DNA of 28,216 bases from a virus. Of this stretch, positions 2,691-25,249 are shown piece by piece. The stretch lies in the IMG/VR virus record IMGVR_UViG_3300043425_000229, positions 1-28,216 of that record, one strand, 5' to 3'. The stretch's first letter is position 1. Each line of letters starts with the position of its first letter. A program made the translations under genes and the position numbers. The notes under the pieces were generated by a model that saw only the letters and a list, made by a program, of their open reading frames with translations, was not told the origin of the DNA and ran no database searches.

Positions 2691-3608
2691 ATGGCTACCC
2701 CAATGCGGAGTACTGACTTTCGCTCCATCGTCGAGCCGATCCTGAACGAAGAGTTCGACGGCGTTTACAACCAGCGTGCCGATGAGTGGTCGCAGGTCTT
2801 CAAAGAGTTCAAGGGCATCCCCCGGAACTACCACGAAGAGCCTGTCCTCTATGGCTTCGGCGCTGCACCGGAACTGCCCGATGGCATGCCGGTCACCTAC
2901 CAGTCGGGCGGCGTGCTGTTCATCCAGCGCTACGTCTATCAGGTCTACGGCCTCGCCTTCGCTCTGACGAAGGTTCTGGTCGAAGACGGTGACCACATCC
3001 GCATCGGCCAGACCTATGCCCGCCACCTCGCGCAGTCGCTTGTTGAGACCAAGGAAACCCTCGGTGCCAACATCCTCAACCGCGCATTCACCGGTGGTGC
3101 ATATGTCGGCGGCGACGGCGTCAGCCTCGTCAACACGGCGCACCCGATCGCGACCGGCACTTTCTCGAACCAGCTCTCGACGGCCGCAAACCTGTCGCAG
3201 ACCTCGCTTGAGCAGCTGCTGATCCAGATCCGCAACGCAGTGGACAACAACGGCAAGCGCATCCGCTTGACGCCGAAGAAGATCGTCACCGGTCCTTCGA
3301 ACGTCTTCCAAGCGGAAGTTCTGCTGAAGTCTGCACTGCGTGCCGGCACTGCCAACAACGACGTCAACCCCGTCAATTCGATGGGCCTGCTCGCTGATGG
3401 CCAAGCCAACCTGTCGCGTATCACGTCGACCACCGCATGGTGGATCCAGACCGACGCGCCGGAAGGCCTGAAGCTGGCCATGCGTCGCGGCCTCGAAAAG
3501 TCCATGGAGGGCGATTTCGAGACCGACAGCATGCGCTACAAGGCGACCGAAAGGTATGCATTTGGTTGGACTGACCCGCGTGGCGTATACGGTACAGCCG
3601 GAATTTAA
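2691..3608 (+). CDS. Major capsid protein (HK97-fold type)
   Basis: The 305-residue product matches the general pattern of HK97-fold major capsid proteins of the Mu gpT-like group. An N-terminal segment with RSIVEPILNEEFDG is followed by a region containing FKEFKGIPRNYHEEPVLYG, an amphipathic long helix region (about 105-125), and GVSLVNTAHPIATGTFSN, the His-Pro loop common in this group. The P-domain-like part has a long KIVTGPSNVFQAEVLLKSAL segment, and the protein ends with RYAFGWTDPRGVYG. The ribosome-binding site AGGAGGG is the strongest in the head module, as expected for the most abundant virion protein. A double stop (TAATAA) ends the gene, and a hairpin follows at 3645-3697. The fold was not computed. 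Confidence 0.85.
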   Translation: MATPMRSTDFRSIVEPILNEEFDGVYNQRADEWSQVFKEFKGIPRNYHEEPVLYGFGAAPELPDGMPVTYQSGGVLFIQRYVYQVYGLAFALTKVLVEDGDHIRIGQTYARHLAQSLVETKETLGANILNRAFTGGAYVGGDGVSLVNTAHPIATGTFSNQLSTAANLSQTSLEQLLIQIRNAVDNNGKRIRLTPKKIVTGPSNVFQAEVLLKSALRAGTANNDVNPVNSMGLLADGQANLSRITSTTAWWIQTDAPEGLKLAMRRGLEKSMEGDFETDSMRYKATERYAFGWTDPRGVYGTAGI

Positions 3609-3644
3609 TAAGCGTTTGAAATACAACGTTTTTTAAGTTCTTGT

Positions 3645-3697
3645 AAAAGTCCCTATCAGTAACTAGGCTTCACTGTCTGCTACTGATGGGGATTTTT
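3645..3697 (+). terminator. 17-bp hairpin after the capsid gene; terminator and/or RBS-sequestering element
   Basis: The left arm at 3645-3661 (AAAAGTCCCTATCAGTA) pairs with the right arm at 3681-3697 (TACTGATGGGGATTTTT) over all 17 positions. Fifteen pairs are Watson-Crick and two are G-U. The loop is 19 bases. The right arm ends in a T-run, so the structure has the form of an intrinsic terminator closing the capsid transcript. The right arm also holds GGGGA, the only ribosome-binding site for the ATG at 3698, which begins directly after the arm. Transcripts reading through from the capsid gene would therefore hide that site. The structure is read directly from the sequence; both functions are inferred. 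Confidence 0.75.
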
Positions 3698-4306
3698 ATG
3701 CGTAAAGAACACGACATTTGCACGTTGGACGGCTGCGGCCGTCCGCATAAGGCGCGCGGCTACTGCCCGACACATTACATGCAGTTCAAGCGGGGCATAG
3801 CGCCCGTTGGGCCGATCAAGACGCGCGTCGCGGTTAAGCCGGACGAGTGTGTTGAGGAGGGTTGCTCGGATCCAGTGAAGGCCAAGAGCCTGTGTAAGAT
3901 GCACTACCAGCGGTTGTTGCGGCACGGGTACACCGGGCGCACCGAAAGGAAGAAGCCCCCGCGCGAGTGCATGATTGAGGCATGTGATAACCATGTATAC
4001 GCCAAAGATATGTGCCACGCGCATTACGCCAAACAGCGGAAGTGGTTGGCACATGGGGTTGACGCCCAGCGGTATCAAGACATGCTGCGCGAGCAGGGTG
4101 GCGTCTGCGCGATTTGTCACCGCCGAGAGCGACAGCGCGACGGATTGTCGGGTAAATCAAAAGATCTTGCCGTCGACCACGACCACAAGACTGGCGCAGT
4201 GCGGGCCCTGCTATGCTCGGCCTGTAATACGGCGCTCGGCCTATTCAACGACGACAGGGCGACGCTCGACGCGGCGAGGGCATATCTCGACAAGCATCTA
4301 GCCTAA
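3698..4306 (+). CDS. Endonuclease VII-type HNH nuclease with three zinc-finger-like repeats; probable free-standing homing endonuclease
   Basis: The 202-residue product has two parts. The N-terminal part has three copies of C-x4-C-x9-C-x2-H (CTLDGC...CPTH, CVEEGC...CKMH, CMIEAC...CHAH), each followed by Tyr and a basic residue. These are probable zinc-binding DNA-contact modules. The C-terminal part (about 125-202) is a recombination endonuclease VII-type beta-beta-alpha metal domain: CAIC, then LAVDHDHKTGAVRALLC and CSACNTALG, with the Asp-His-Asp-His catalytic core and four metal-binding cysteines. Start at 3698 was chosen over the in-frame ATG at 3686, because GGGGA at 3688-3692 fits 3698 and 3686 has no site. 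Its place between capsid and other virion genes, bounded by hairpins, suggests a mobile homing nuclease rather than a Holliday-junction resolvase; that is inference. Confidence 0.85.
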   Translation: MRKEHDICTLDGCGRPHKARGYCPTHYMQFKRGIAPVGPIKTRVAVKPDECVEEGCSDPVKAKSLCKMHYQRLLRHGYTGRTERKKPPRECMIEACDNHVYAKDMCHAHYAKQRKWLAHGVDAQRYQDMLREQGGVCAICHRRERQRDGLSGKSKDLAVDHDHKTGAVRALLCSACNTALGLFNDDRATLDAARAYLDKHLA

Positions 4307-4332
4307 TGCCTTTGGCTGTGTTATGACGCCCT

Positions 4333-4346
4333 GCCGCCCGTGCGGC
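4333..4346 (+). promoter_or_regulatory. Small GC-rich hairpin after the endonuclease gene
   Basis: GCCGC (4333-4337) pairs with GCGGC (4342-4346) around a 4-base CCGT loop. It is followed by CTATATTCTTTCG, a T-containing but not continuous tract. It lies in the 69-base gap between the endonuclease gene and the next virion gene, whose AAGGA site is at 4362-4366. It could be a weak terminator or processing site. Only five base pairs support it. Confidence 0.25.
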
Positions 4347-4375
4347 CTATATTCTTTCGCGAAGGATTAAATTAA

Positions 4376-4819
4376 ATGGCACAGACGACTTGGAGCGGAC
4401 CGCTCGCCTCGGGCGACCGCAACGCAGGCGAGAGCGGCGGACCGAATATCGGCCTCGTCACCCTCGCCCAGACCGCGCTCATCAACTTCGACGCCACGCT
4501 GGTACAGAACGCCACGTTCAATATCCCGGCGAGCAGCCAGATTGTTGACTTTTATGTCGACGTTCTGACGCAGTTTGACAGCGCCACCTCGGCGACGCTG
4601 TCGGCTGGTACGGCATCGGGTGGCACGCAGTATCTCAGCGCCATCAACGTAAAGACGGCGGCTCGCCGCCCGAATGCGTTCAGCGCTGCGCAGCTTGCTG
4701 CCATGGACGACGTCGGCACCAACCGCACGGTTGTCGCCACCGTCACCTCGGTCGGTCAGCCGACTGCGGGTCAGGTGCGTGTCACCATGCTGTACGTGCA
4801 AACGACGGCTGATGACTAA
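4376..4819 (+). CDS. Small virion structural protein, beta-rich
   Basis: This 147-residue protein begins MAQTTWSGPLASGDRNAG and contains NIPASSQIVDFYVDVLTQFDS and ends in VRVTMLYVQTTADD. It is rich in Thr, Ala and Val with beta-strand periodicity, few Lys, no signal peptide and no membrane segment. Proteins with the TTWSGPL start and a PAGSQI-type segment are common next to capsid genes in environmental tailed phages and are usually annotated as virion or decoration proteins; that is recalled family knowledge, not computed. AAGGA lies 9 bases upstream. The composition and gene neighbours support a head-surface or neck-accessory protein. Confidence 0.65.
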   Translation: MAQTTWSGPLASGDRNAGESGGPNIGLVTLAQTALINFDATLVQNATFNIPASSQIVDFYVDVLTQFDSATSATLSAGTASGGTQYLSAINVKTAARRPNAFSAAQLAAMDDVGTNRTVVATVTSVGQPTAGQVRVTMLYVQTTADD

Positions 4820-7804: not shown

Positions 7805-9415
7805 GTGTCCGCATTTGACGCTGGTGCCTTTGACGCCGGGGCGTTTGATGCTGGTGTAGGGGCGCAAACGCTCCTCCCGAGCCTAGTTACCAATACAAAT
7901 ACCATATACGCCGCGACGGTCACGCGTGGCGCGATTACGCTTACCCCCGGTTTGCTGACTAACAGCAACACCATCTACTCGCCCACGGTCACTGGGGCTG
8001 GGCCCGCCCAGACGCTTAACCCGAGCCTGCTGACCAATAGCAACACCTTCTACGCCGCGACGATCACGCGTGGCGCGGTGACGGTCAGTCCTCCTCTGCT
8101 GACCAACAGCAATACCATCTACGCGGCCACAGTGGTTCCGGGCGCGATCAATCTGCAGCTGGCCCTGCTGATCAACAGCAACACCTTCTACGCCGCGACG
8201 GTCACGCGCGGGGCGGCGACGATCAGCCCGCCCCTGCTGACTAACAGCAACGCCATCTACGCGGCGACAGTAAGCCCCGGAGCGATCACCCTCCAGCCGC
8301 CGCTCCTAAGCAACGGCAACACCATCTACGCGGCGACGGTGACTGCGGGGGCCGCCACGCTGCAGCCGCCGCTGGTCAGCAACAGTAACACCATCTACGC
8401 CCCGGCGGTTGTCCCCGCCGCGACCACGCTCAGCCCGCCCCTGCTGGTCAACAGCAACGTCGTCTACGGTCCGGCAGTCAGCCCCGGCACCGCGATGGTG
8501 CAACCGCCGCTGCTCGCCAACTCGAACGCCTTCTACGCCGCGACAGTGACCGTAGGGGCGGTTACGCTCAGCCCGGGCCTGCTGGTCAACGCCAACCAAA
8601 TTTACGCGCCCGTTGTCATCCCCGGCACGGGCACTATCGCCGTACCGTTTGTCGAGAACGTCAACGCCTTCTACGCGGCGTCCGTCATCCCGTCTGCGGT
8701 CACGGTCAATCCGCCGCTAGTCACCAACGCCAACCAATTATATGCACCGCTGGTCGAGGACGACTACCTCCTCGGGCCACCGCTCGTCGAGAACGTAAAC
8801 ACCCTCTACGCCCCGGCGGTTGTCCCCGCTGCGACCACGCTCAACCCGCCGCTGGTCACCAACACCAATCAGTTCTACGCCGCCACGGCCACTTCGGTAA
8901 ATCTAGTCAGCCCGCCGCTGGTAGAGAACGCCAACACCTTCTACGCCGCGACGGTGACGCGCGGCGCGGTCACGCTGCAGCCGTTACGCGTAAACAACAC
9001 CAACATCTTCTACCCGGCGGCACTGCTGGCGGATCAGGAGCTGCGGCCCGCGCTCTTCGACAACGACAATGAGTTCTACCCAGTCGTCGCCCAGTCGACG
9101 TACACCCTCACGCAGGCGCTGCGCTTCAACAACATCTCGGCCATCTACGGGCCGACTGTCGTCGCGCTGCCGCCGATCCTCCAGCCGCCGCTGGTCGTCA
9201 ATCCGAACGGCTTCTACGGCCCCTACATTCTGGCCTTCCCGCCACCCGATTTCCCGTCCCCAGATCAGCGGCAGGACATGCCCACGATCCCTGAGACGCC
9301 GCGAACCACTGTCGAGATCCAAATCTTGGCGCGCATGCCCGCGCCGGCGATCCCCGAGCTTGCACGGCAGCCCATGCCCGAGAGCAGCAGCCCAAGATTG
9401 CCGATGGTGTTGTGA
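7805..9415 (+). CDS. Virion protein of about twenty 23-residue repeats, probable beta-solenoid fibre
   Basis: The 536-residue product begins at GTG, three bases after the previous stop. After a short FDAGAFDAGAFDAG triplet at the N-terminus come about twenty tandem units of 21-25 residues, mostly 23. The consensus is LxPPLLTNSNTIYAATVxxG followed by A-x-T. Asn-Ser-Asn-Thr and the aromatic Tyr are the most constant positions. Such short, regular, hydrophobic/Asn ladders usually fold as beta-solenoids or beta-prisms. The last about 60 residues are Pro-rich (TIPETPRTTVEIQ) with no repeat. It sits between a fibre-like gene and a neck gene, so it is probably a fibre or tail-spike shaft. Function is inferred from repeat type and place. 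Confidence 0.7.
   Translation: MSAFDAGAFDAGAFDAGVGAQTLLPSLVTNTNTIYAATVTRGAITLTPGLLTNSNTIYSPTVTGAGPAQTLNPSLLTNSNTFYAATITRGAVTVSPPLLTNSNTIYAATVVPGAINLQLALLINSNTFYAATVTRGAATISPPLLTNSNAIYAATVSPGAITLQPPLLSNGNTIYAATVTAGAATLQPPLVSNSNTIYAPAVVPAATTLSPPLLVNSNVVYGPAVSPGTAMVQPPLLANSNAFYAATVTVGAVTLSPGLLVNANQIYAPVVIPGTGTIAVPFVENVNAFYAASVIPSAVTVNPPLVTNANQLYAPLVEDDYLLGPPLVENVNTLYAPAVVPAATTLNPPLVTNTNQFYAATATSVNLVSPPLVENANTFYAATVTRGAVTLQPLRVNNTNIFYPAALLADQELRPALFDNDNEFYPVVAQSTYTLTQALRFNNISAIYGPTVVALPPILQPPLVVNPNGFYGPYILAFPPPDFPSPDQRQDMPTIPETPRTTVEIQILARMPAPAIPELARQPMPESSSPRLPMVL
7871..9230 (+). repeat. About 20 in-frame repeats of about 69 bp
   Basis: Each unit codes for 21-25 residues and contains a variant of AACAGCAACACC-ATCTACGCC. 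Units 1-10 are closest to each other at DNA level, and the later units diverge (for example ENVNAFYA and NNTNIFYP). All length changes keep the frame, as expected for a repeat expanded by recombination or slippage under selection for protein. Confidence 0.85.
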
Positions 9416-20958: not shown

Positions 20959-21188
20959 TCAACCCCCTCGGAATGACTTGGCAAGACTGGGCTTCTTCGG
21001 TTATATTGGTCGTCGGCGACGCGTGGTCATTCGGGAGGCCTCCCGAGGAAACTGCGTGGCGCGATTGGGCAACGGGGCTTGTACGCGCGTCTCCTTTTAC
21101 GCAGCGCACCCTTCCTGATCCTTACCAGTTCTCGGACTGGCGTGACTGGGCAATGCGCGCCTACCCGATGCTTGAAAGTGCAGGTTGA
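20955..21188 (+). CDS. 77-residue protein with three W-x2-W-A repeats
   Basis: GTG at 20955 overlaps the previous stop (GTGA), and the frame runs 77 codons. Three motifs occur: WQDWA (9-13), WRDWA (35-39) and WRDWA (62-66), spaced 26 and 27 residues. Each is preceded by Ser/Thr or Asp. The Pro-rich pieces between them ([16 protein letters not shown]) suggest three short helical modules. The function is not known to me. It lies between the hub protein and the large repeat protein, so tail or internal-protein assembly is possible. Stop and next start overlap (TGATG). Confidence 0.6.
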
Positions 21189-24100
21189 TGGACGACTACT
21201 ATATCCCCGGCTATACTAACTATCTGTACTCGAACGAGCCTTACTATGGCGCGTACGACTACGGCATGTCGGGATACTACGATCCGGTAGGTGCATCGCC
21301 GACCGAGCCGACGTACTATCCCGAGCCGACGTACTATCCCGAGCCGACGTACTATCCCGAGCCGACGTACTATCCCGAGCCGACGTACTACTCTGAGCCT
21401 GTATACCCAGCGCCTACAAGCCCTCCGCCTACAAGCCCTCCGCCTGCAAGCCCTCCGCTTGCAAGCCCCCCGCCTGCAAGCCCCCCGCCTGTATACTATG
21501 AGCCTGCGAGCCCTCCTCCAACTGAGTACTCAGATCTTGCGTATTCGGCGGCGCAGGCTGAAGCGCAGCGGGTAGCAGCAGCACAGGCTCAAGCCCAGCG
21601 TGTCGCAGCAGCACAGGCTGAAGCGCAGCGGGTAGCAGCAGCACAGGCTCAAGCACAGGCAGAGGCCCAAGCACAGGCAGAAGCCCAACGGATAGCGGCA
21701 GCACAGGCCCAAGCACAGGCCCAAGCTGAGGCTCAACGGGTGGCAGCAGCACAGGCCGAGGCCCAACGGGTAGCGGCAGCACAGGCAGAGGCCCAACGGG
21801 TAGCAGCGCAACAAGCTGAGGCCCAACGCATAGCAGCGCAACAGGCTCAAGCACAGGCCGAGGCCCAACGGGTGGCGGCAGCACAGGCCGAGGCCCAACG
21901 GATGGCAGCGCAACAGGCTGAGGCCCAGCGGATAGCGGCAGAGCAAGCTCAGGCGGCGCAGGCTGAAGCCCAGCGGATCGCGCAGGCCGAGGCCCAACGC
22001 ATAGCGGCGCAACAGGCTGAGGCCCAGCGGATAGCGGCAGCACAGGCAGAGGCCCAACGGGTAGCGGCAGAGCAAGCTCAGGCGGCGCGGGCTGAAGCCC
22101 AGCGGATGGCCGCGCAACAGGCTGAGGCTCAACGGGTGGCAGCAGCACAGGCCGAGGCTCAGCGGATAGCAGCGGAACAGGCTCAGGCGGCCTATACACC
22201 GCCGGTCGAGTATACATCCCCGCTTGATTACGGCACGTCCGACTACTCAGAGCCGGTGTACACGCCCCCGGCCGACTACTCGGAGCCTACGCCCATCTAT
22301 CCAGAGCCGGCGTACACACCGCCTGTCGAATATTACCCCGAGCCGACTTACTCGGAGCCTGTCTACTCGCCCCCTGCGTACGCAGAGCCGGCGTACACAC
22401 CTCCGGTCGAGTACACCCCGCCTGCGTATGTGCCGCCGGTCGAGTACTTCCCTGAGCCGGCGTACACGCCTCCGGTCGAGTACACGTCCCCGCTCGACTA
22501 CGGTGCGTCCGATTACTCGGCTCCGGTCGATTACTCGACACCCGTCACCTATCCCGAGCAAGTCGGTGCGCCTGTCAGCGCCGAGCCGGTATACACCCCG
22601 CCGACTGACTATTCGTCGCTGGTGAATTACACGCCTCCCGCCGAGTATCCGACACCCGTCACCTATGCCGAACAGACAGGTGCGCCGGTTGCGGTCGAGC
22701 CTGATTACTCGACACCCGCCACCTATGCGGAGCAGACAGGTGCGCCGGTGGCGGCTGAGCCGTACTACTCGCCCCCTGCCGCTGTTGAGCAGGCGGGCCC
22801 GCTGAGCTACGCCGAGCAGACAGGCATGCCCACCGACGTCGGACCGGACTACTCCTCGCTCGTCAACTACCCCGAACAAGTTGGAGCGCCCGCCGCTGTG
22901 GAACCCGTCACCTATGCAGAGCAGACAGGCACGCCGGTTGCCGCAGAGCCGGTTGCCGCAGAGCCTTACGCTTCGCCCCTCGAACAGGCTACGCAAACGC
23001 CACCGCCGTTGACATACGAGGAGCGGGAAGCGCGCAGGATCGCGGCGAACACCCCGCCAGAAGGCACCTTCATCACCGCCCCGTTGAGCAACACAGGGGA
23101 AGCCACTGGTTTTGGCGACCGAGGGCAGACCAACGCATTCCAGTATTGGGGCGGCCCCATCCGCGTCACAGACCGCAATGGCAAAGTCCTGTTCAGCGGT
23201 GAGGGACCGGAGGCTGCCGTAGAGGCTGTGAAGTTCGCACAGAACCTGAGCGACACCAAGGGCGCGAACGCCGCGTGGGATATCCAACAGGGCGAACGGA
23301 CGATCAACCCAGACGGCTCCGTAGGGGAGATGCGCTGGATCTCAGGCCCGTCCGACGCCAAAGACGGCAGGGGCATCATCGGCGACATCGGGGGCTTCTT
23401 GATACCGGCTATGGTGGCACTCGCCACCGGGGGCCTCAGCATACCCGCGCAGATCGCGGCAGCCTCAGCAGCGGGCGCGGCCGGTAACGCCTTCGCAGAT
23501 AAAGATCCGCTCAAGGGCGCGGTCATGAGTGCCCTGACGAGTGCAGGCGGCACGGTTCTCGGCCCGGCTATCGGCGAGGCTGCAGACCTCGGCGCGAAGA
23601 CGGCTGGCGCGATCGGCACCGGCCTCGGCGCGACTGCAGGCGGTCTCGCCACCGGCCAGTCTCTCGAAAACGCTCTGCTTGGCGGTTTGGCTTCAGGCGC
23701 TTCTTCCTACTTTTTACCCGGTGTCGCAGAGGAGTTGGGCCTCACAGCGCCCAGCGCCCCGTCCTCCTCGACGGGCGGTGGCTCTGGCACTTTCGATGGC
23801 AGCACCATAACTGTCGCGGCTACCCCTCCCGTAAGCGCCCCAGTATCGATCAGCGATGGCGGCGGCTCTGCACCGAGGGGGGATACCGGCCAAGACACCC
23901 TCAACGATATCGTCGTATCAGCTACGCCCCCAGTGTCGACCTACGTACCAATTCCGGGGCTTGAAGCCGCCGACATGCTGGGCCTTACTGGGGCGGAATT
24001 GCCTCTTCAGCCCGCGCCTGAAACGCCGCCCGAAGAGCGGGATATCGTCGTATCTGGTACGCCTACGGTGTCGACGCCAGTAGCGCTGCCCCCGAGCAGC

Positions 24101-25249
24101 CCACCAAGCGGGCCGCTCAGCTCTGACATTGTGGTCAACGCGCCGGAGACGACATATCCCGAAGAGCAGGTGCCGGTAGCACTGCCCCCGAGCGGGCCGC
24201 CGAGTGGCCCGCTCAGCTCTGACATTGTGGTCAATGCGCCGGAGACGACGTACCCCGAACAGCAGGTGCCGGTAACGCTGCCTCCTGTGGTGGCAGAACT
24301 GCTCGGCACTCCTGATATCGTGGTCAATGCACCGGAGACGACATATCCCGAAGAGCAGGTGCCGGTAACGCTCCCGCCGAGCGGGCCGCTCAGCTCTGAC
24401 ATTGTGGTCAACGCGCCGGAGACGACATACCCCGAGCAGCAGCCCAGCGCGCCGGTAGCCCTACCTCCGTCAGGCGGTCTACCTCCTGTTGATTACGAGC
24501 AGGGTATTGATGTCATTGCGCCAAAGGTTATCCAACCCGAGCCGCCTGCCATACCTCCGGTGCCCCTCGCGCTCCCCGGCGTGCAGACGACGCCTGTCTC
24601 ACAGCCCGACCTGCTCAAGGACGTCAAGCCCGAGGTTGCGCCCGAGAGGAACAGACTGCAGGACATCATCGACTACCTGCGCCTCGCAGGCCTCGCCACC
24701 AGCACGCTGGGGGCGCTGTTCGAGGGTGGCGGCGGTGGCGGCGGCAGCAAGTTCCGCGTGCCGGTACGCTCGAGCCCGTTCAGCTCAGTCTTCTCGGCGA
24801 AGCTCCCGCCACCCAATCTGCCGGGCGGTGTCGGTGGTGGCGGCACAGGCGCACGCACTGCGTCCGACCTCGCTGTGCAGGGCCTGCGCGACCCGATGGA
24901 CTATTACCGCTATGGCTACGGCCCCGAGCAGAGCTTCTTCAACTACGTGCCGCAGGGTGCGCCGAACCGGAGCCGAGCCTACACCGGATACGCCCGAGGC
25001 GGCTTCGCCGTCGAGGGGCCGGGCGACGGCCGCGACGATAAAATTCCGGCGCTGCTTTCCGACGGCGAATATGTTATAGACGCCGAAACGGTCGCGCTCT
25101 TGGGCAACGGATCGAACAAGGCGGGGGCGAAGATGCTCGACAAGTTCCGCGTGAACGTAAGGAAACAAAAGGGCCAGAAGCTGGCGCGAGGCGAATTTAG
25201 CGCCAAGGCGAAGCGGCCCGAACACTATATGGCCGGAGGGCGAACATAA
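21188..25249 (+). CDS. 1353-residue repeat-rich virion/ejection-type protein (Pro/Tyr, TolA-like helix, TonB-box-like repeats)
   Basis: Region order: Tyr/Pro/Glu repeats (1-115); an Ala/Gln/Glu/Arg helical repeat of period 10 (122-334); a second Pro/Tyr/Glu region (335-610); a globular part with [20 protein letters not shown]; a Gly/Ala-rich region with possible membrane helices (728-853); DIVV-Pro repeats (870-1110); a Gly run; and a C-terminal domain (1270-1325) with [20 protein letters not shown] and [17 protein letters not shown]. The last block is a domain I recall at the end of phage proteins near tail-internal genes. The gene is between hub and internal-protein genes, so ejection with DNA is plausible. 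ATG at 21188 overlaps the previous stop; TTG at 21185 is a less likely start. Functions of the regions are inferred. Confidence 0.6.
21305..21394 (+). repeat. 18-bp tandem repeat, five units (EPTYYP)
   Basis: Four perfect units GAGCCGACGTACTATCCC start at 21305, 21323, 21341 and 21359, and a near-perfect fifth (ending TACTCT) starts at 21377. The near identity at DNA level means very recent expansion. It is in frame in the large repeat gene. Confidence 0.95.
21404..21495 (+). repeat. 15-bp Pro/Ser tandem repeat
   Basis: Units of the form AGCCCTCCGCCTRCA (Ser-Pro-Pro-Pro-Thr/Ala) recur five to six times with single-base changes. Together with the 18-bp repeat it makes the N-terminal region likely to vary in length between relatives. 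Confidence 0.85.
21551..22190 (+). repeat. About 18 in-frame repeats of 30 bp ([10 protein letters not shown] helix)
   Basis: The 10-residue unit AQAEAQR[V/I]AA recurs throughout, with some units lengthened by AQAQ insertions. Constant Arg and Glu positions suggest a single long charged helix, similar in composition to TolA domain II and to phage tail-needle-type helices. The DNA copies differ mainly at third positions. Confidence 0.9.
23906..24470 (+). repeat. Six DIVV-containing repeats, four of them close copies
   Basis: DIVV starts at nucleotides 23906, 24041, 24125, 24221, 24314 and 24398 (residues 907, 952, 980, 1012, 1043, 1071). The last four share [13 protein letters not shown] followed by EQ or QQ and VPV-Ala/Thr-LPP at DNA and protein level, spaced 84-96 bases. 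The first two are divergent ([12 protein letters not shown] and [12 protein letters not shown]). Confidence 0.9.

Follow-up and report, generated by a model that had tools for sequence, protein, structure and literature searches.

Introduction

A hairpin that hides the ribosome-binding site (RBS) and has a promoter nested with it is a known arrangement in homing endonucleases of T-even phages. In the insertion sequences IS10, IS50 and IS200, a fold that hides the Shine-Dalgarno sequence (SD) silences impinging read-through RNA, and transcription from the element's own promoter begins within this fold; IS200 carries a terminator-like hairpin in addition to the SD-hiding one. For phages, RBS-sequestering hairpins combined with late promoters are documented for I-TevI, I-TevII, I-TevIII and segB of T4 and for mobE of Aeh1 (PMC2988022, PMC3014915). 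T4 I-TevI also attaches to an operator that overlaps its promoter, and read-through into T4 mobE and segF is limited by an intrinsic terminator in the 5' part of the coding sequence (PMC2988022). In the case of the ISPpu9 transposase, a 5'-UTR structure buries the RBS and an antisense RNA is proposed to open it (PMC8450116).

The locus considered here lies behind the major capsid gene of a 28-kb viral record (28,216 nucleotides; this whole stretch is called the window). A preliminary description of it had drawn a parallel to I-TevI, which is apt in its logic, the closest documented cases being the free-standing mobE of Aeh1 and segB, and also I-TevI (PMC2988022). As in the T4 and Aeh1 leaders, a stable hairpin is predicted to hide the RBS of a phage nuclease on transcripts of the upstream gene, and a promoter-like signature in the hairpin would yield RNA unable to form it; like mobE and segB, the nuclease is free-standing. 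The promoters of the T4 and Aeh1 leaders are late promoters, however, whereas the boxes here follow a sigma-70-like -35/17/-10 layout; the repressed RNAs are early and middle there and presumably the late capsid RNA here; and the nucleases there are of the GIY-YIG or other HNH families rather than of the Endonuclease VII type. The hairpin here additionally has a U-tract and takes the place of the capsid terminator. While the terminator of T4 mobE and segF sits inside the gene, the one proposed here ends at the start codon and shares its helix with the SD lock. In IS10, IS50 and IS200 the transposon ends supply the repeat, whereas this is a phage nuclease cassette with neither transposase nor terminal repeats. 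The RBS of a mobility gene is buried both here and in ISPpu9, with antisense opening there and a bypass by an internal start here. We put the probability at about 0.8 that these 57 nt form a promoter-in-hairpin valve, which serves a mobile cassette encoding an Endonuclease VII-type nuclease.

Results

The locus and the mobile cassette

The features of the locus are as follows.

2691..3608, + strand: major capsid gene, the upstream neighbour and source of read-through RNA (Pfam Phage_capsid_4; 80 relatives at 84-94% identity)
3609..4361, + strand: mobile cassette with hairpin 1, hairpin 2 and its putative promoter, nuclease and tail (compared with the empty relative L004; boundaries also from L067/L077)
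3606..3635, + strand: hairpin 1, on the capsid stop codon and just behind it (weak in the window, z -1.2)
3641..3646, + strand: promoter -35-like TTGTAA (TTG in 32/32 alleles)
3643..3661, + strand: left arm of hairpin 2, forming most of the 17-nt spacer of the putative promoter (fold; spacer of 17 nt in all alleles; arm covariation)
3664..3669, + strand: promoter -10-like TAGGCT in the apical stem (T 32/32, A 32/32, G 31/32, G 32/32)
3675..3677, + strand: predicted transcription start, placed 6-8 nt past the -10
3681..3699, + strand: right arm of hairpin 2, with SD, U-tract and two start-codon bases (fold)
3688..3692, + strand: SD GGGGA (sequence; opening cost)
3693..3697, + strand: U-tract, a terminator-like tail (T counts in 32 alleles)
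3698..4306, + strand: Endonuclease VII-type HNH nuclease with three Cys/His repeats (Pfam PF02945, E 1e-20; PHROG HNH/endonuclease VII)

The downstream gene had been called a probable homing endonuclease from its sequence. Its product of 202 amino acids has a Pfam Endonuclease_7 domain (E 1e-20); the catalytic motif DHDH/DHCH is conserved, and the DHDH and the Cys residues are intact. That it homes is suggested by its presence and absence at the site. In the closest empty alleles, the capsid stop codon is followed by a short G+C-rich terminator-like hairpin and, about 52 nt on, by the next structural gene; in the occupied alleles two hairpins come first and the nuclease follows, starting about 90-104 nt behind the capsid gene. 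Compared with the empty relative L004, the cassette replaces about 35 nt containing the native capsid hairpin. In the pair L067/L077, a stretch of 686 nt comprising the two hairpins and the nuclease stands in place of 89 nt that include the native terminator; the boundary falls at the capsid stop codon, and the flanks are 97-98% identical on either side. Two more pairs, L042/L179 and L014/L017, likewise differ in the presence of the cassette between near-identical flanks, and on the capsid tree the cassette switches between present and absent 13 times, with a minimum of 9 forced changes.

In DNA-pattern scans of all viral contigs, hairpin 2 turns up only before the focal nuclease, so leader and nuclease travel together; one scan of genome contigs returned distant relatives only. 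Two alleles (L165/L213) with nearly the same capsid gene continue into Endonuclease VII genes that differ from each other, as do their promoter-hairpin leaders. The nucleases of L011, L212 and L213 are chimeric, with a focal-like C-terminal Endonuclease VII half (59-67% identity) joined to an N-terminal half that, like the leader, is of a different type.

Hairpin 1, although weak in the window, occupies a position that holds a stem-loop across the family (mean z -3.3, 32 alleles). It is A/T-richer than hairpin 2 and reaches into the -35 box in many alleles; its sequence varies and its fold is kept. Candidate roles are a weak terminator, a 3' stabiliser or UP-like DNA. Another terminator-like hairpin (4333-4346, GCCGCCCGTGCGGC, with a T-rich tail) lies between the nuclease gene and the structural gene that comes next. 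Elsewhere in the window, two long open reading frames (7805-9415 and 21185-25249) consist of degenerate repeats, with LL.NSNTIYAATV units and Pro/Tyr-rich units, and probably encode structural proteins.

Structure and covariation of hairpin 2

The preliminary description had reported a 17-position pairing with two G-U pairs and, in its right arm, the sole binding site (GGGGA) of the nuclease gene. Both hold: each of the 17 positions in 3645-3661 has its partner in 3681-3697, including G3649-U3693 and U3654-G3688, and the SD at 3688-3692 falls in the right arm. Folding of the RNA lengthens the helix to 3643-3661/3681-3699 and adds an apical stem (3664-3668/3675-3679). Over 76 nt the fold has an energy of -34.5 kcal/mol (z = -7.2), and none of 200 shuffled sequences folds as well. 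The helix takes in the A and the U of the start codon (ATG, 3698-3700). Rfam covariance models have no match in 3400-4500 up to an E-value of 1.

We gathered 32 distinct occupied leaders by a second search that used the nuclease alignment. Hairpin 2 is kept in 32/32 of these alleles with compensating changes. The preliminary description had proposed to look in relatives for paired changes and for nucleases with unpaired flanks; the two arms change together, and no allele at the site has unpaired flanks (0 found, 32/32 paired). On a plain MAFFT alignment, RNAalifold recovers part of the stem only, and because the right arms are misaligned in this input, the covariation is measured by swapping arms. 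Over the 32 alleles, a duplex of an allele's own arms has -25.6 kcal/mol, against -14.8 kcal/mol with foreign arms. An initial clustering of the spacers chained into 3 groups and had no power; the permutation test is based on 12 diverged representatives instead, and 0 of 100,000 permutations pair as well as the real arms.

The cost of opening the Shine-Dalgarno sequence

The mean unpaired probability of the SD is a poor measure of its accessibility, because the coding sequence also pairs with the SD, and the free energy needed to open it is used instead. In the window, opening GGGGA costs 25.0 kcal/mol on capsid read-through RNA and 2.5 kcal/mol on RNA from an internal start. The means over the 32 alleles are 20.1 kcal/mol (range 12.9-25.0) and 3.6 kcal/mol respectively, and the SDs of 26 other genes of the window open at 0.6-9.2 kcal/mol. 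When the 5' end is slid along the window leader, the lock breaks between 3651 (17.3 kcal/mol) and 3657 (4.4 kcal/mol), and all transcripts from 3657 onward open at 1-4.5 kcal/mol. A start at 3675..3677 gives about 3 kcal/mol, as compared with 23-25 kcal/mol from upstream starts. The earlier proposal that expression needs a start inside or after the left arm thus agrees, at the computational level, with the folds of truncated transcripts and with the conserved promoter-like signature described below.

A promoter-like signature inside the hairpin

The same DNA holds a promoter-like signature that the preliminary description had overlooked. A TTG hexamer (usually TTGNAA), a gap of exactly 17 nt and TAGG fit all 32 leaders, with 0 failures; one leader (L033) has TAAGGA at the TAGG position, and the sixth position of the -10 is mostly T across the leaders. 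The gap between the boxes is the left arm of the hairpin: its sequence varies widely and stays paired with the right arm, while TTG and TAGG are fixed. The TA of TAGG persists even in the three leaders where it is unpaired (L015, L208 and L217), and this TA is therefore held for its sequence. In the window the complete pattern has a single occurrence, against 0.01 expected.

This TTG-17-TAGG layout looks like a sigma-70 promoter with its -35 at the hairpin base and its -10 in the tip. A phage T4 late promoter (TATAAATA) is absent from 3600-3700; the boxes are sigma-70-like instead. The window's own boxes, TTGTAA-17-TAGGCT, are weak by E. coli standards, another site in the window leader scores higher, and a generic promoter scan of the window did not list them; the signal comes from the relatives. 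The T4-type leader calls for a promoter that yields RNA without the left arm, and a candidate for it is thus present as a sequence signature.

Unrelated Endonuclease VII genes and controls

Is the arrangement particular to this nuclease? Unrelated Endonuclease VII genes at capsid sites, with start codons picked by an SD rule, have an SD opening cost above 10 kcal/mol in 18 of 20 leader families. In 19 of the 21 high-cost families, at capsid sites or not, the best promoter-like -10 lies 20-38 nt ahead of the start codon; a transcript begun from such a site would lack most of the left arm. The leader families are partly non-independent (several are focal, others are inter-related), and both these counts, which overstate the number of separate origins, and the combined promoter p-value over the families have to be read accordingly. 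The leaders of L011, L096 and L100 have no good promoter match.

Of 323 other genes taken as controls, 15 have a cost above 10 kcal/mol, 3 of the 15 being Endonuclease VII genes missed by the filter, which puts the share at about 4% of other genes. GIY-YIG nucleases that follow the capsid gene at the same site (L027, L031, L042, L056) have an open SD (6.3-7.8 kcal/mol), and the SD of Endonuclease VII genes away from capsid sites is mostly not hidden. Of seven Endonuclease VII genes in cultured phages, that of AlanGrant sits inside a terminase intein; the other six leaders are open (1.7-8.3 kcal/mol) and none of them adjoins an annotated capsid gene. The device therefore seems tied to capsid-site cassettes and not to the whole nuclease family.

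Termination and alternative readings

The six nucleotides before the start codon contain 3-6 T in 32/32 alleles and at least 5 in 31/32. Together with the G+C-rich stem, this U-tract matches the pattern of an intrinsic terminator, with a short G+C block in the window itself. A generic terminator scan of the window did not flag hairpin 2, because of its long loop. Termination at hairpin 2 is plausible from these sequence features, and the U-tract, characteristic of the focal family, probably replaces the lost capsid terminator. What the unrelated leaders have in common with the focal one is the SD lock and the putative nested promoter. In L044, most of the nuclease is lost to an internal deletion that spares the hairpin and the start codon; given this allele, hairpin 2 may also serve the capsid gene. 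Its -35 reads CTGCAA in place of TTGCAA, a single case that is only suggestive.

One could then read hairpin 2 as the intrinsic terminator of the capsid operon and nothing else, with the overlap of the SD as a by-product of tight gene packing. The U-tract in all alleles, the terminator-like hairpin right behind the capsid gene in empty relatives and the hairpin retained by L044 all accord with this. We consider it unlikely, however: genes directly behind the capsid gene in relatives lacking the focal nuclease have an open SD (1.3-9.5 kcal/mol), the leaders of L092, L097, L106 and L108 hide the SD without any U-tract, and a pure terminator has no need of TTG-17-TAGG.

Just as improbable, in our estimate, is that TTG and TAGG are a site for a protein, the nuclease or another one (an operator, a homing half-site or an RNA-binding site), rather than a promoter. 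The sequence TACA and adjacent loop bases are conserved in the 32 leaders as well, which such a site would explain, and given that T4 I-TevI binds to an operator overlapping its promoter (PMC2988022), both could hold. Yet canonical boxes appear at the same position in unrelated leaders: TTGACA-17-TACAAT (L215, L224), TTTACA-17-TATAAA (L097) and TTGCCA-17-TATGAT (L094). A promoter explains these and a family-specific operator does not; the boxes of L106 are TTGCAA-17-TAAGCT.

Less probable still is late, conditional expression through a trans-acting factor or antisense RNA that opens the hairpin on capsid transcripts, for which the ISPpu9 transposase is a precedent (PMC8450116): a non-systematic look saw no antisense promoter or partner, and with the internal promoter signature no opener is needed.

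Discussion

The promoter-in-hairpin valve would work as follows. A polymerase reading through from the capsid gene would place the whole of hairpin 2 in the RNA, where the right arm would lock the SD and part of the start codon and leave the read-through RNA untranslated. The U-tract probably ends many of these transcripts, standing in for the displaced capsid terminator. Within the same DNA, a sigma-70-type promoter would have its -35 at the hairpin base, the left arm as its 17-bp spacer and its -10 in the tip. An internal start after the left arm would give a short leader in which neither hairpin nor terminator can form and the SD is open. The cassette thus seems closed to translation on capsid transcripts and open to it on RNA from its own promoter.

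Beyond the focal family, the leaders at other capsid sites lean us, with less assurance, towards regarding promoter-in-hairpin leaders as a general control device that has evolved repeatedly among the Endonuclease VII-type mobile nucleases colonising the capsid genes of unrelated phages. The left arm would double as the spacer, and one stretch of DNA would serve as start signal, translation lock and, in the focal family, replacement terminator.

What is new with respect to the T-even phages is the use of this logic with promoters of the host type, across many unrelated phages, for another nuclease family and with unrelated sequences. The design is compact: the gene would be readable only from its own promoter and shielded from transcription that enters from upstream. 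With 32 natural alleles, empty sites and the broken allele L044 at hand, the switch lends itself to direct testing, and the arrangement suggests a general rule for the survival of selfish nuclease genes in highly transcribed structural operons.
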